Source of the DNA: Bradyrhizobium sp. Y36
Lineage (GTDB): Bacteria; Pseudomonadota; Alphaproteobacteria; Rhizobiales; Xanthobacteraceae
Reading direction: 5' to 3'
NCBI RefSeq assembly: GCF_002531575.1
Contig: NZ_NWTI01000025.1
Coordinates: forward strand, 1-64,000
Length of the DNA stretch: 64,000 bases
This document shows positions 614 to 55,472 of the stretch, piece after piece. Under the pieces are notes generated by a model. The model worked only from the letters and a program-made list of their open reading frames with translations, was not told the DNA's origin and made no database searches. The position numbers and the translations under genes were made by a program. Within the stretch, counting starts at the first letter, position 1; each line of letters begins with the position of its first letter.

Positions 614-2308
614 ATGCGCAAGAATCTTCCCGTCACCGATCTAGAATATCCCGTCAGCGACGAAACGCTGATCGTCTCGCGGACCGATCTCAAGGGCAAG
701 CTCAGCTTCTTCAACGAGGATTTCATCGCGGCCGCCGGCTTCACGTCGGCGGAGCTGATGGGGCAGCCGCACAACATCGTCCGTCATCCCGACATGCCGC
801 CGGAGGCGTTCGACAATCTCTGGGACACGCTGAAGGCCGGCAAGCCGTGGCTCGGCGCCGTGAAAAACCGCCGCAAGAACGGCGACTTCTATTGGGTGCT
901 GGCGACGGCCTCTCCGATTCGTGAGAACGGCGAGGTCAAGGGCTATACTTCGATCCGCACGAAGCTGCCGGCCGACCAGCGCAAGCTCGCTGAAGAGGTC
1001 TACGCGGCGATCCGCGAGAAGAAGTCGCATGGCTATCGCATCGACGCCGGCATCATCCGCCGCCGCTCGTGGCTCGACCGCTTCAGCCTCTTCACCGGCA
1101 CGCTGAAGGCGCGCCTCGTCACCACGATGGTGCTCCAGGGGCTATTCATGCTCGCGCTCGGCATCGTCGGCGCGCTTTCCACCAGCGGCTCGACCAGCCT
1201 CATCCTGGCGGCACTGGCCGTCGTCGGCACCGCCATGGTCGGCTTTGCGGGCCTCTCAACCATGCGCGCGATCCAGGAGCCGATGCAGCGGCTCAACGAG
1301 ATCCTGGTCAATCTCGTGCAGGACAAGCTCGACAACCGCATCGTGATCGAGCGCGACGACGAGATCGGCGAGGCGCTGCGCAACCTTCAGACCGTGCAGA
1401 CCATCATCCGCTTCAGCCGCGACGAGGTGCAGGCGGTACAGCGCCGCGCCGAGACCCAGCGCAAATCCGACATGACCAAGCTTGCCGACGGCTTCGAGGC
1501 CGCGATCGGCGAGATCGTCGAGACCGTGTCGTCGGCCGCAACCGAGCTCGAGGCTTCGGCCTCGACGCTGTCCTCGACTGCGGGTCGGGCGCAGCAATTG
1601 GCAACGGCGGTCGCAACCGGCTCGGAAGCGGCTTCCTCCAACGTCCACTCGGTCGCCTCCGCCGCCGAAGAGATGTCGTCCTCGGTGCGCGAGATCGGCC
1701 GCCAGGTGCAGGACTCCTCACGGATTGCGGGCGATGCCGTCAATCAAGCGCAAGCCACCACCGAACGTGTCGGCGAATTGTCGCGCGCCGCGTCCCGAAT
1801 TGGTGATGTCGTCGAACTGATCAATGCCATCGCCGGCCAGACCAATCTGCTGGCGCTCAATGCCACGATCGAGGCGGCACGGGCCGGCGAGGCCGGTCGC
1901 GGCTTTGCCGTCGTGGCCTCCGAGGTCAAGGCGCTCGCCGAGCAGACGGCCAAGGCCACCGGCGAGATCGGCCAGCAGGTCGGCGGCATTCAGGCCGCGA
2001 CGCAGGAATCGGTCAGCGCCATCAGCGAAATCTCCGGCACGATCGCGCGTCTGTCCGAAATATCGTCGGCGATCGCGGCAGCGGTGGAGCAGCAGGGTGC
2101 TGCAACCCAGGAGATCGCCCGCAACGTTCAGCAGGCCGCCCACGGCACTCAGCAGGTGTCGTCCAATGTCGGCGACGTCCAGCGCGGCGCCTCCGAAACC
2201 GGCTCGGCGTCCTCGCAGGTGCTGTCGGCGGCGCAGATGCTGTCGCGCGATTCCAACCGTCTCAAGCTCGAGGTCGGCAAGTTCCTGAATTCCGTCCGCG
2301 CCGCGTAG
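614..2308 (+). CDS. aer: Aer-like aerotaxis/energy-taxis receptor (PAS-2TM-HAMP-MCP)
   Basis: 564 residues. An N-terminal PAS domain (about 10-125) carries stretches typical of E. coli Aer, including [17 protein letters not shown] and [12 protein letters not shown]. Then come a pair of membrane helices (about 168-189 and 194-216) with almost no periplasmic loop, a HAMP region (217-270), and an MCP signalling domain with the [16 protein letters not shown] hairpin. Aer family members bind FAD in the PAS domain and report redox state to CheA/CheW; FAD binding here is inferred. I chose ATG 614 because GGGGAG at 604-609 sits just upstream, although an in-frame TTG lies at 602. It is followed by a hairpin and then another receptor. 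Confidence 0.9.
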
Positions 2309-2339
2309 CTGCGGGTTCAGCTAAGCTCGCATGACGAAC

Positions 2340-2374
2340 AACCAAGCTGCGATCGCTCCGATCGCAGCTTGGTT
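2340..2374 (+). terminator. Strong hairpin after the Aer-like gene
   Basis: A 16-bp perfect inverted repeat (AACCAAGCTGCGATCG at 2340-2355 and its complement at 2359-2374) with a 3-base loop, 31 bp after the stop codon. No clear T tract follows, so it may be a terminator, an mRNA 3' stabiliser, or both. Confidence 0.6.
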
Positions 2375-2550
2375 GCTGCTTGCGCGGCACTTGGCAGGTA
2401 ACGATTCGATAGTCATACGATCGATGAATCGCACTGGAGGCGAGGTTCGGCGAAGATCTTTGACGTGAGTCAATCCCAAGTTGCCTAGGCCGACTATTGC
2501 TTCGCGGAAATGCTGCTTTTTATTTGTTGCCCACGATAGGACGGCGAGCC

Positions 2551-4647
2551 GTGCATTTGCGAATTGGAACGATCCTGCCTCTGATTGTCTCGGCTCTCGC
2601 CCTGATGGGAGTGGCCGCCACCGGTTACACTGCCTTCGGGGCCTATCACGACCGACAGGAGGCGAACGCCTTCGTCGAGCTCAACGGCATATCGCAACAG
2701 CTGCTGCACAGTGCGGGGCAATGGGCTCTGGAGCGGGGAATGACCAACGCGGCGCTCAACGCGCCCGAGGCCATCGCTGCAGATCGCCGCGCCGAGATCG
2801 ATCGGGTCCGTACAGCTTCGGGTCGGTCGTTCCACGATGCCGCGCAGCGCCTGCGCGGCCTGCCCGCGCTGAAATCCATCGAAACCAACATTGCGGATGC
2901 CGAGCGCGTTCTTGAAGGAGTCGAGAGCCTGCGCCGCAAGGTTGACGCTGATCTGGTCAAGCCGAGAGCCGAGCGCGATCCCGCCGTCGTCAGGGCCGTC
3001 GTTCCGGCCTTGACCGAGCTCATCGAGGTCGCCGCCAACCGGCTGCGATTGACCTTGGAGACGCTGACCGATTCGCCGTCGGCCGCGATGACACGGCTTG
3101 TCGGGCTTCGTCATCTCACCGCGGAGATGGCCGAGAATGCCGGCCGCGAGCGAGCCTTCCTCGGGGGCCTGATCAGCGCCCGTGCGAAACTTACCGCGGA
3201 CGGCATCGGCGTGATGTCCGGGTTCCGCGGTCATGTCGATCTCGCCTGGGAGACCATCTCCCCTGTCGCCCAGCGCGCCGATGTCTCGGCGGACCTTGGC
3301 AAGGCGATCAAGGACGTGGAGCAGAAATACTTCGGCACTTACGGTTCGCTGCGCGGAGACGTGATTGGTGACGGCAGGACGGGCGAATACAAAATCTCGG
3401 GCAACGACTATGTAGCGAGCGCCACGAGCGCCATCGATGCGATCCTCAAGCTTGGTCAGGCCATCGCCGCGGATGCGGATCGGGAAGCCGCCGGCCTTGC
3501 CGCAAGGAGCACGTCTAATCTGATTGCCAGCGGTGGGATCCTCCTTGCGAGCGTCGCGCTGGCGCTGCTCAGCTTCTGGGTCGCGTTTTCGCGGATCTTG
3601 CGCCCGCTGTCTGCCCTGACGGGCGCCATGGGCGAACTTGCCGCCGGCCATTTCTCCATCGTCCTGCCCGGCCTCGGCCGCAAGGACGAGATCGGCGACA
3701 TGGCGCACGCGGTCGAAGCCTTCAAGGTCAAGGCCGAAGAGAAGGCACGCGCGGAAGCCGAGGCCAAGATCACGCAGGATCGGATCGCCGCCGAGCAGCG
3801 CAAGGCCGACATGCACAGTCTCGCCGGGGCATTCGAGACCGCCATCGGCGAGATCATCGAAACGGTGTCCTCAGCGTCGACCGAGCTCGAAGCCTCGGCG
3901 GGCACGCTGAATACGACTGCAGAGCGCGCACAGCAATTGGCGGGTGTGGTGGCAGCCGCGTCGGACGAAGCATCCTCGAACGTCCAATCGGTGGCCTCGG
4001 CGACCGAGCAGCTCTCGTCCTCCGTCAACGAGATCAGCCGACGGGTCCAGGACCAGGCCCGGATGGCCAACGAGGCGGTCGGCCAGGCGGGACGAACCAA
4101 CGACAGAATCGGCGAATTGTCGCGAGCGGCCTCCAGGATCGGCGACGTCGTCGAGCTGATCGACCAGATCGCCGGCCAGACCAACCTCTTGGCGCTCAAC
4201 GCCACGATCGAGGCCGCGCGTGCGGGCGATGCCGGCCGTGGCTTCGCGGTGGTCGCGTCCGAGGTGAAGGCGCTCGCCGAGCAGACGGCAAAAGCAACCG
4301 GGGAGATTTCCCAGCACATTACCGGCATACAGGCGGCCACCCAGGACTCCGTCGGCGCGATCCGGGACATCGGCGGCTCGATCGGACGTCTGTCGGAGAT
4401 CGCCTCGGCCATCGCGGCGGCCGTCGAAGAGCAGGGCGCTGCGACCCAGGAGATCGCGCGGAACGTGCAGAAGGCGGCTCAGGGAACGCAACAGGTGTCG
4501 GCCAATGTCGGCGAGGTCGAGCACGGCGCCAGCGAGACCGGTTCAGCCTCGTCCCAGGTGCTGTCGGCAGCGCAGATGCTGTCCCGAGATTCCAATCGCC
4601 TCAAGCTCGAGGTCGGCAAGTTCCTGGACACGGTCCGCGCCGCCTGA
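2551..4647 (+). CDS. Methyl-accepting chemotaxis protein with periplasmic sensor
   Basis: 698 residues from GTG 2551, which I prefer over an in-frame TTG at 2497 because the first residues then begin the first membrane helix (about 5-27) and a purine-rich GGACGGCGAG stretch precedes it. A periplasmic region of about 290 residues follows, then TM2 (about 322-345), HAMP, and an MCP domain with [16 protein letters not shown]. The periplasmic part has two ERG/RER-containing stretches ([19 protein letters not shown]), which hints at a four-helix or NIT-type sensor, but I cannot assign a ligand. The C-terminus ends in the same VRAA tail as the two receptors upstream. Confidence 0.9.
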
Positions 4648-53668: not shown

Positions 53669-54190
53669 ATGACGCATGCGGTAAGGCCAAATGGCGTGGA
53701 AAATCTCCTCGGTGAGGAGGAGCTGATCGTCTCGAAGACCGATCTCAAGGGCCGCATCACCTACGCCAACGACGTGTTTCTTCGCATGGCGAAGTATCCC
53801 TGGAAGGAGCTGATGGGCGCGCCCCACAGCCTGATCCGCCATCCGGACATGCCGCGCTGCGTCTTCAAGCTGCTGTGGGATACGCTGCAGGCCAAGCAGG
53901 AAATCTTCGCCTACGTCGTCAATCTCGCCGCGGACGGCAGCCATTACTGGGTGTTCGCCCATGTCACCCCGACGCTGGACGATCGCGGCAACATCATCGG
54001 CTATCACTCCAATCGACGCAGGCCCGATCCGGCGCCGGTCGAGAAAATCAAACCGATCTACAAGGCGCTCTGCGCGGAAGAGGCTCGGCACGCCAATGCC
54101 AAGGAGGGCATGCGTGCAGGCTTCGACATGATGGTCGGTCTGCTCAAGCAAAACGGTGTCGGTTACGATGAATTTGTGCTCTCTCTCTAA
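53669..54190 (+). CDS. PAS-only sensor protein (CetB/Aer-PAS-like)
   Basis: 173 residues from ATG 53669; an in-frame TTG at 53612 is possible. One Aer-type PAS domain: [20 protein letters not shown], then [33 protein letters not shown] and a helical tail ending YDEFVLSL. The HPDMP-W stretch matches that of the Aer-like protein at 614-2308. It lacks membrane helices and a signalling domain. Its 3' end overlaps the next receptor by 23 bp, in another reading frame, and the overlap includes a (CT)5 tract. Campylobacter CetB/CetA is a split receptor of this kind. Confidence 0.88.
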
Positions 54191-55472
54191 GTCGCAGGGA
54201 GCGACTGCCGCCGCGTGTCTTCTCGCCGGCGTCGCGTTCGTGGTCTCGCTGCTCGGCGGAAGCGGAATCATCAGTGCAGCGCCGCTCGGTGCGGCGATCC
54301 TGCTGCTCGGCTACGCGCTCTGGTGCCAGCACCGTATGGCTGTGGCCGTCGACGAGGTCGCTGATGTCTGCCGCAAGGCGGCGCGCGGCGATCTTGAAGC
54401 GCGGATCCTGAGCGAGCGCCAGGCCGGGCGGATCGGCGCCATCCAGAAGTCGGTCAACGACATGCTCGACATCGCCGACGCCTTCGTCCGCGAGGCCTCG
54501 GCATCGATGGACTATGCCAGCCGCGGCAAGTATTTCCGCAAGATCCTCGCGCGCGGATTGCCCGGCTCGTTCCGCCGCTCGGCGACCGTCATCAACGCCG
54601 GCACCGACAGCCTCGGCCGCCGCGTGGTCGAGATCGGCGACCTTGCAAAGCAGTTCGGCACGCATCTCGACAAGGTTGCAGGCAGCCTCATGAGCGCAGC
54701 GGCCGACCTTGAATCCGACGCCGGCCAGATGGCGGCGGCGGCGGAGATGACGAACCGCCAGACCTCCGGCATGCGCAGCGCGTCCGATCAGGCCTCGAGC
54801 AATGTTGCGACGGTGGCGAGCGCGGCCGAACAGCTCGCATCCTCGATCGCCGAGATCAGCCGCCAGGTGGCCGGCTCGACCACGAGCACGGGGCGCGCCG
54901 TCGACGAGGCCAATCGTGCCGGCAATGAAATTCGCTCTCTCGCGGATGCCGCGATGCGGATCGGCGACGTCGTCAAGCTGATCAGCGAGATCGCCTCGCA
55001 GACCAACCTGCTGGCGCTCAACGCGACCATCGAGGCGGCGCGGGCAGGCGAGGCCGGCCGCGGCTTCGCGGTGGTGGCCTCCGAGGTCAAGAGCCTCGCC
55101 AACCAGACCGCGAAGGCGACCGAGGAGATCAGCGCCAAGGTCGGCGAGATGCAGCAATCGACCAGCACTTCGGTCGCCGCCGTCGAGGCGATCGCGCAGA
55201 CCATTGCCGAGATCGACGGCATCACCGCGAGCATCGCGGCCTCGATCGAGCAGCAGGGCTCCGCGACGCGTGAGATCGCCCGCAACGTTCACGAAGCTAC
55301 CGCCGGCACTTCGCAGGTCTCCTCCAATGTCAGCGGCATCAGTGACGCCGCCGCCGACACGGGCCGCGTCGCCAGCCGCGTCAACAGCGCCTCCGAGCGC
55401 GTCCACGGCGAGGTCGAGACGCTCCGCCGCGAAGTGACGCAGTTCCTGCAGCGGCTCACCACGGCGGCGTAG
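54168..55472 (+). CDS. Sensorless transmembrane chemoreceptor (CetA-like), partner of the PAS protein
   Basis: 434 residues from ATG 54168. Two membrane helices (about 11-31 and 35-53) with a tiny loop, a HAMP-like region, then an MCP signalling domain with [16 protein letters not shown]. There is no periplasmic or cytoplasmic sensor, so it probably takes its input from the overlapping PAS protein. The MCP tip is less like the receptors at 0-4.7 kb, and it ends in TTAA, not VRAA. Adding one CT unit before codon 8 would fuse it to the PAS gene as a single Aer-like protein of about 601 residues. Confidence 0.88.
54179..54188 (+). repeat. (CT)5 dinucleotide tract at the PAS/MCP junction
   Basis: Five CT units end the PAS frame (CTC TCT CTC TAA) and also encode Ser-Leu-Ser near the MCP start. 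The MCP frame is +1 relative to the PAS frame. With six units the PAS frame would read CTC TCT CTC TCT AAG and run straight into the MCP. Simple tracts of this kind can slip during replication; five units is short, so slippage is only possible, not shown. Confidence 0.8.

Follow-up and report, generated by a model that had tools for sequence, protein, structure and literature searches.

Analysis of a 64,000-nucleotide stretch of Bradyrhizobium DNA (the window) points to a stable energy-taxis receptor made of two proteins, as in CetB/CetA systems, an identification that we regard as very probable. The receptor would be composed of the products of two genes which, like every window feature described below, lie on the forward strand: a cetB-like gene (53669-54190, from ATG at 53669 to TAA at 54190) encoding a stand-alone PAS sensor of 173 amino acids with the C-terminus YDEFVLSL, and a cetA-like gene (54168-55472, from ATG at 54168 to TAG at 55472), whose product of 434 amino acids would carry a membrane hairpin, a HAMP-like region, and an MCP signaling domain. 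The two genes share 23 nt (54168-54190), where frame 0 gives the last residues of CetB and frame +1 the first residues of CetA. Pfam recognizes PAS in the product of the cetB-like gene and MCPsignal in that of the cetA-like gene, such that a PAS-only protein is encoded beside an MCP lacking a sensor. The original prediction had described just such an overlap of a PAS-only gene with the start of a chemoreceptor, and had offered three interpretations, namely a stable split receptor, a slip-prone on/off fusion, and a +1 frameshift site. The arrangement is as it was described, and the first interpretation is strongly supported by the co-occurrence of both proteins, the conservation of the PAS protein, its Aer-PAS fold, and the lack of any fused frame among the loci searched, while the other two interpretations gained no support. 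The split itself, its conservation, the co-occurrence of the partners, the FAD-pocket residues, the fold, and the dual coding discussed below are all read from sequence or from structure prediction.

Several characteristics mark the first protein as a CetB. Firstly, its PAS core spans residues 24-112 (53738-54004; Pfam boundaries) and is followed, in an AlphaFold2 model with a mean pLDDT of 95.2, by C-terminal helices at residues 121-139, 144-162, and 166-172 (54029-54184), the last of which ends in YDEFVLS. The best fold match of this model is the PAS domain of Escherichia coli Aer (8DIK; TM 0.93 by target length, rmsd 1.0 over 124 columns, 40% identity), and the same domain is the best match of the CetB sequence profile (E 6.6e-35). 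Secondly, Herz et al. (2025; PMC12442639) name eight residues that surround FAD in Magnetospirillum gryphiswaldense CetB2, and seven of these (H54, R58, F67, W71, N86, V100, and R117) are identical in the window protein, where they occur at a constant offset of one as H53, R57, F66, W70, N85, V99, and R116. The sole mismatch among the eight is N55 of CetB2, which corresponds to S54, and R116 is the only counterpart to fall just outside the PAS core. Six of the seven matching residues are invariant among 63 aligned homologues and V99 is nearly so; additionally, R57, H58, and D60 are as in E. coli Aer. The YDEFVLSL ending, which had appeared to be conserved when a single sequence was viewed, proved to be so in the same 63 homologues, Y166 being invariant and D167, E168, and F169 nearly invariant.

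The second protein had been described as a chemoreceptor with two membrane helices and no sensor of its own, and its AlphaFold model agrees: N-terminal helices at residues 5-28 and 33-72 lead into long receptor helices, and the model of the window protein contains no distinct sensor domain. A two-helix membrane hairpin is accordingly predicted at about residues 5-28 and 33-51 (54180-54320) from the modeled helices and from hydropathy, which yields one membrane segment for the window protein in a simple scan and two in another; among the first 28 Bradyrhizobium loci, the simple scan finds two segments in 23. The MCP signaling domain occupies residues 240-398 (54885-55361; PF00015, E 6.3e-32). 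The Pfam HAMP family (PF00672) is matched by 23 of 48 homologues; the window protein gives no match to it, even with the E threshold relaxed to 0.1. Elliott and colleagues are said to have listed, in 2009, nine conserved HAMP/signaling residues in CetA. A second class of pair was also observed, in which CetA has no predicted membrane helix and a median length of 387 amino acids; this class accounts for 75 of 262 pairs, 55 of them with separate rather than overlapping genes (examples include L030, at 2083-3231, L061, and L064), and its members are apparently, judging from prediction, cytoplasmic two-protein receptors.

Further support for a dedicated pair can be found in the distribution of the two proteins. 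Of 149 related genomes, counting that of the window itself, 51 hold strong relatives of the PAS protein (E 1.2e-46 or better; 30 at the level of the genus and 21 at that of the order), and the N-terminal part of CetA finds matches in the same 51 genomes, mostly as the next gene. In one genome (G136) the two genes lie about 5.5 kb apart, and one genome of the order (G143) holds a weak PAS relative with 35% identity and no CetA match. Across the genus, sampled as one genome per species, the PAS gene is present in 85 of 265 genomes at E 1e-50, so that roughly one in three of the sampled Bradyrhizobium species would have a bipartite energy-taxis receptor; since 180 genomes gave no match at this threshold, the pair is dispensable. 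Profile matches were obtained in 66 of 385 genomes of the class (E 1e-30) and in at least 158 of 398 genomes of the phylum (E 1e-25), both counts including the PAS domains of single-chain Aer-like proteins. In a set freed of repeats, a CetA follows closely on the same strand for 262 CetB copies. Excluded from this tally were loci that repeat others (L031-L060, L090, L091, L114, and L128), copies sharing an identical 180-nt junction, CetB matches below 150 bits, and those that stopped short of profile position 165.

These data also bear on whether the partnership is exclusive. It is conceivable that CetA uses other partners or that CetB serves other receptors, as might be suggested by 17 CetB copies for which no CetA lies downstream within the fetched DNA (in the case of L212 the DNA ends at the gene) and by Campylobacter jejuni, where an additional CetB paralogue is encoded 5' of cetA (PMC2628428). 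Against this stand the coincidence of CetA matches with strong CetB matches in all 51 genomes and the finding that the genome from which the window derives contains a single CetB, the only other candidate being the Aer-like PAS at E 1e-8, and we consider a non-exclusive pair to be very unlikely. Copies of CetB without a CetA directly downstream include L139, L112, L125, L148, and L155, and two cetB-like genes lie close together in L119, L139, L140, and L166.

The window contains, in addition to the pair, a single-chain Aer-like receptor gene (614-2308), in which Pfam finds PAS and MCPsignal in one frame; a further chemoreceptor-like open reading frame lies 3' of it (2497-4647). The presence of a single-chain gene with the same domain order invites the idea that the pair is a recently broken Aer-like gene, that is, a pseudogene in which a frameshift cut one receptor in two. 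Both halves of the pair are nonetheless conserved in many families, the split form is the only one found with this type of CetA, the PAS domain of the Aer-like gene is merely 41% identical to CetB, and CetB possesses, in its AlphaFold2 model, C-terminal helices of its own. Such an origin is thus rejected on the conservation of the split form, and we assign it a negligible probability.

Fused and split versions of the receptor were compared, as the original prediction had proposed, and the split version alone was recovered from the loci examined. No frame matching both the CetB and the CetA profile was present in 346 fetched loci, nor in eight further loci chosen for their long PAS frames (six weaker matches in frames of 439-851 amino acids and two PAS copies in frames of 299 and 259 amino acids), for a total of 354. 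Profile searches for fused homologues covered 385 genomes of the class and 398 of the phylum and scored the best eight or nine candidates per genome, a design that a rare PAS-MCP fusion could have escaped. Among the matches listed, one PAS match with an E-value no higher than 1e-60 lies in a frame of more than 500 amino acids (G491, 587 amino acids; L121, 2424-3599), and this candidate was rejected as a fusion because its N-terminal part matches HD domains and not CetA. The CetB-like PAS is situated at the C-terminal end of that HD-domain-matching frame; in two other loci, L347 (G624) and L352 (G170), a CetB-like PAS begins a frame of 439-468 amino acids that has no CetA profile match.

The preferred reading of a stable split receptor must also account for the (CT)5 tract located in the overlap. 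The tract (CTCTCTCTCT) lies at 54179-54188, its only occurrence in the window, and its position and the arithmetic of read-through are both as first described: one extra CT unit would fuse the frames, 1804 nt plus 2 giving 602 codons including the stop, or about 601 residues. With 0.13 occurrences expected and at least one occurrence in 11 of 100 shuffles, the tract taken alone is unremarkable; the conservation of the junction that surrounds it is, on sequence comparison, not a product of chance. Junctions were collected from 87 Bradyrhizobium loci in 86 genomes, and in 62 of the 87 the PAS frame ends in the same 27 nt. Seventy-nine junctions are of the YDEFVLSL type, five have KSAA-type C-termini, one reads YARFVLGL, and two (L340 and L088) are unscored, being counted among the 87 loci and not among the junctions as the frame found in each ends at an upstream frame break. 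In these two genomes (G1049 for L340 and G040 for L088, the PAS relative of G040 being split into two pieces) the break falls within cetB ahead of the junction and could reflect either real decay or an assembly error; both termini of L340 are still readable at the junction, and its cetA also appears to be frame-broken near its end.

Were the receptor phase-variable, such that gain or loss of a CT unit toggles split and fused forms, variation in unit number would be the expected trace. The repeat does sit exactly within the overlap, where one added unit would join the frames. Yet five CT units are kept in 74 of the 79 Bradyrhizobium junctions of the YDEFVLSL type, the remaining five are interrupted by one substitution that leaves both frames intact, and none of the 79 has gained or lost a unit. 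Similarly unfavorable to a switch are the absence of dual-profile frames from the 346 loci noted above, the rarity of CT runs of at least 7 nt in pairs whose genes do not overlap (5 of 69), and the tract itself, which is just 10 nt long and is forced when both termini are kept. The slip-prone on/off fusion was therefore abandoned, and phase variation at this locus is extremely improbable.

The tract is best explained by dual coding, provided that both peptides matter. When all codings of the CetB terminus VLSL-stop were enumerated together with CSLSK of CetA in the +1 frame, a single one of 2592 was found to work, and it is the one observed (GTGCTCTCTCTCTAA); when VLSL-stop is coded alone and codings are weighted according to local codon use, 1.3% contain a CT run of at least 8 nt. 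As only one DNA solution is permitted for both termini, the tract can be accounted for without a slippage switch. Comparison of overlapping and separate pairs is in keeping with this reading, although tallies of overlapping pairs differ with the filter applied (79 + 101 for CT runs, 183 for motifs, and 79 + 100 for the ribosome-binding core). The motif SL[SF][KR] occurs near the start of CetA in 132 of 183 overlapping pairs vs. 0 of 69 separate pairs, and hence looks like a by-product of the CetB end read in another frame. The CetB end, for its part, also occurs where the genes do not overlap: a loose Tyr-Asp-x-Phe motif is found in 40 of 69 separate pairs vs. 176 of 183 overlapping ones. CT runs of at least 7 nt are present in 76 of 79 overlapping pairs inside Bradyrhizobium vs. 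46 of 101 outside. Some cases fall outside the dual-coding explanation: among pairs ending in [FL]SL, 19 of 140 overlapping ones lack a CT run of at least 7 nt and 5 of 15 separate ones have such a run.

The tract, near-invariant in the genus, might also be read as the site of a programmed frameshift, +1 or, at the CT repeat, -2, which would add small amounts of a CetB-CetA fusion to the two separate proteins, and reasoning from the sequence a two-base backward slip would re-pair the same CUC codon and enter the CetA frame. The conservation of the tract is, however, already covered by dual coding, and 69 pairs have no overlap at all. Moreover, in eight motif-bearing pairs in which the cetB stop is displaced downstream (cetA ATG at -29, -32, or -38), the SL codons track the CetA ATG and not the stop, a spacing that also bears on whether both peptides matter for dual coding. 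No positive evidence for the proposed +1 site thus emerged, and we judge a programmed frameshift to be very unlikely. Equally doubtful is its possible consequence, namely that slippage of the ribosome at the repeat (-2 or +1) supplies a minor fusion and with it a mixed array of split and single-chain receptors within a single cell. The dual-coding reading carries a wider caution for repeat-based scans for phase variation, as two overlapping frames can impose a repeat that resembles a switch.

The geometry of the overlap is itself conserved. In the window the cetA ATG sits within the CetB Asp-Glu codons, and in 174 of 176 motif-bearing overlapping pairs its A coincides with the second base of the CetB Tyr codon (84 pairs) or of the next codon (90 pairs), a constancy that is partly built in, as the overlapping class was selected by the offset of the ATG from the cetB stop. 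That the cetA start is embedded in the conserved Tyr-Asp-Glu codons of CetB in many alphaproteobacteria is a small new detail, and it offers a clean case of overprinting that may be useful for studies of translational coupling and receptor stoichiometry. Within Bradyrhizobium the overlap is codon-locked: the modal codon is used in 96% of cases over the last eight cetB codons vs. 81-88% in other blocks, as expected under dual coding. This comparison rests on 68 distinct sequences. The set began as 81 loci, of which two (L340 and L341) were skipped, and RHPD was missing from its modal position in 11 of the other 79.

A ribosome-binding 4-mer core 5' of cetA is found in 13 of 79 overlapping pairs in Bradyrhizobium, near the background of 19% of 786, vs. 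79 of 100 other overlapping pairs, in which it lies inside cetB codons, and 45 of 69 separate pairs. The near-background frequency suggests that translation of cetA in Bradyrhizobium is probably coupled to that of cetB, an arrangement that would help to balance the amounts of the two proteins.

Taken together, these observations and analogy with characterized relatives allow a mechanism to be proposed. The two genes would share a transcript; CetB most likely binds FAD through its PAS domain and thereby senses the electron-transport redox state; the signal would be passed to CetA by direct contact; and CetA, as a predicted membrane-hairpin/HAMP-like/MCP protein, would control CheA and so taxis. 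The CT tract would be an outcome of the two reading frames and play no part as a slippage switch. Energy taxis plausibly matters for life in soil and in nodules. No publication on a Bradyrhizobium CetB/CetA pair was found in the literature searched: the available part of PMC9664959 names the FixL PAS of B. japonicum and CetA/CetB of C. jejuni and no Bradyrhizobium pair, and Bradyrhizobium is absent from the available part of a 2026 review of aerotaxis (PMC13401364). Overlapping cetB and cetA genes as a kind are already published, from Magnetospirillum, and thus known.

Comparison with known systems places the pair closest to three receptors. In M. gryphiswaldense, the genes cetB2 and cetA2 overlap, seem to be co-transcribed, and are both needed, and CetB2 and CetA2 interact and use FAD (PMC12442639); the window pair shares with it an alphaproteobacterial PAS-only CetB, seven of the eight FAD-pocket residues, and an overlapping cetA with (here predicted) membrane helices. 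An earlier example is the co-transcribed CetA/CetB of C. jejuni (PMC2628428), in which the domains of Aer are likewise divided between a PAS protein and a hairpin-HAMP-MCP partner; unlike in the window, the gene order there appears to be reversed, with cetA before cetB, as implied by a remark on polar effects. Finally, the window pair has in common with E. coli Aer (8DIK) the FAD-type PAS fold, the R57/H58/D60 residues, and, by prediction, the overall PAS-membrane-HAMP-MCP scheme. E. coli Aer is a single chain, however, whereas the window encodes this scheme as two proteins, CetB and CetA, and holds a single-chain Aer-like receptor as a separate gene.
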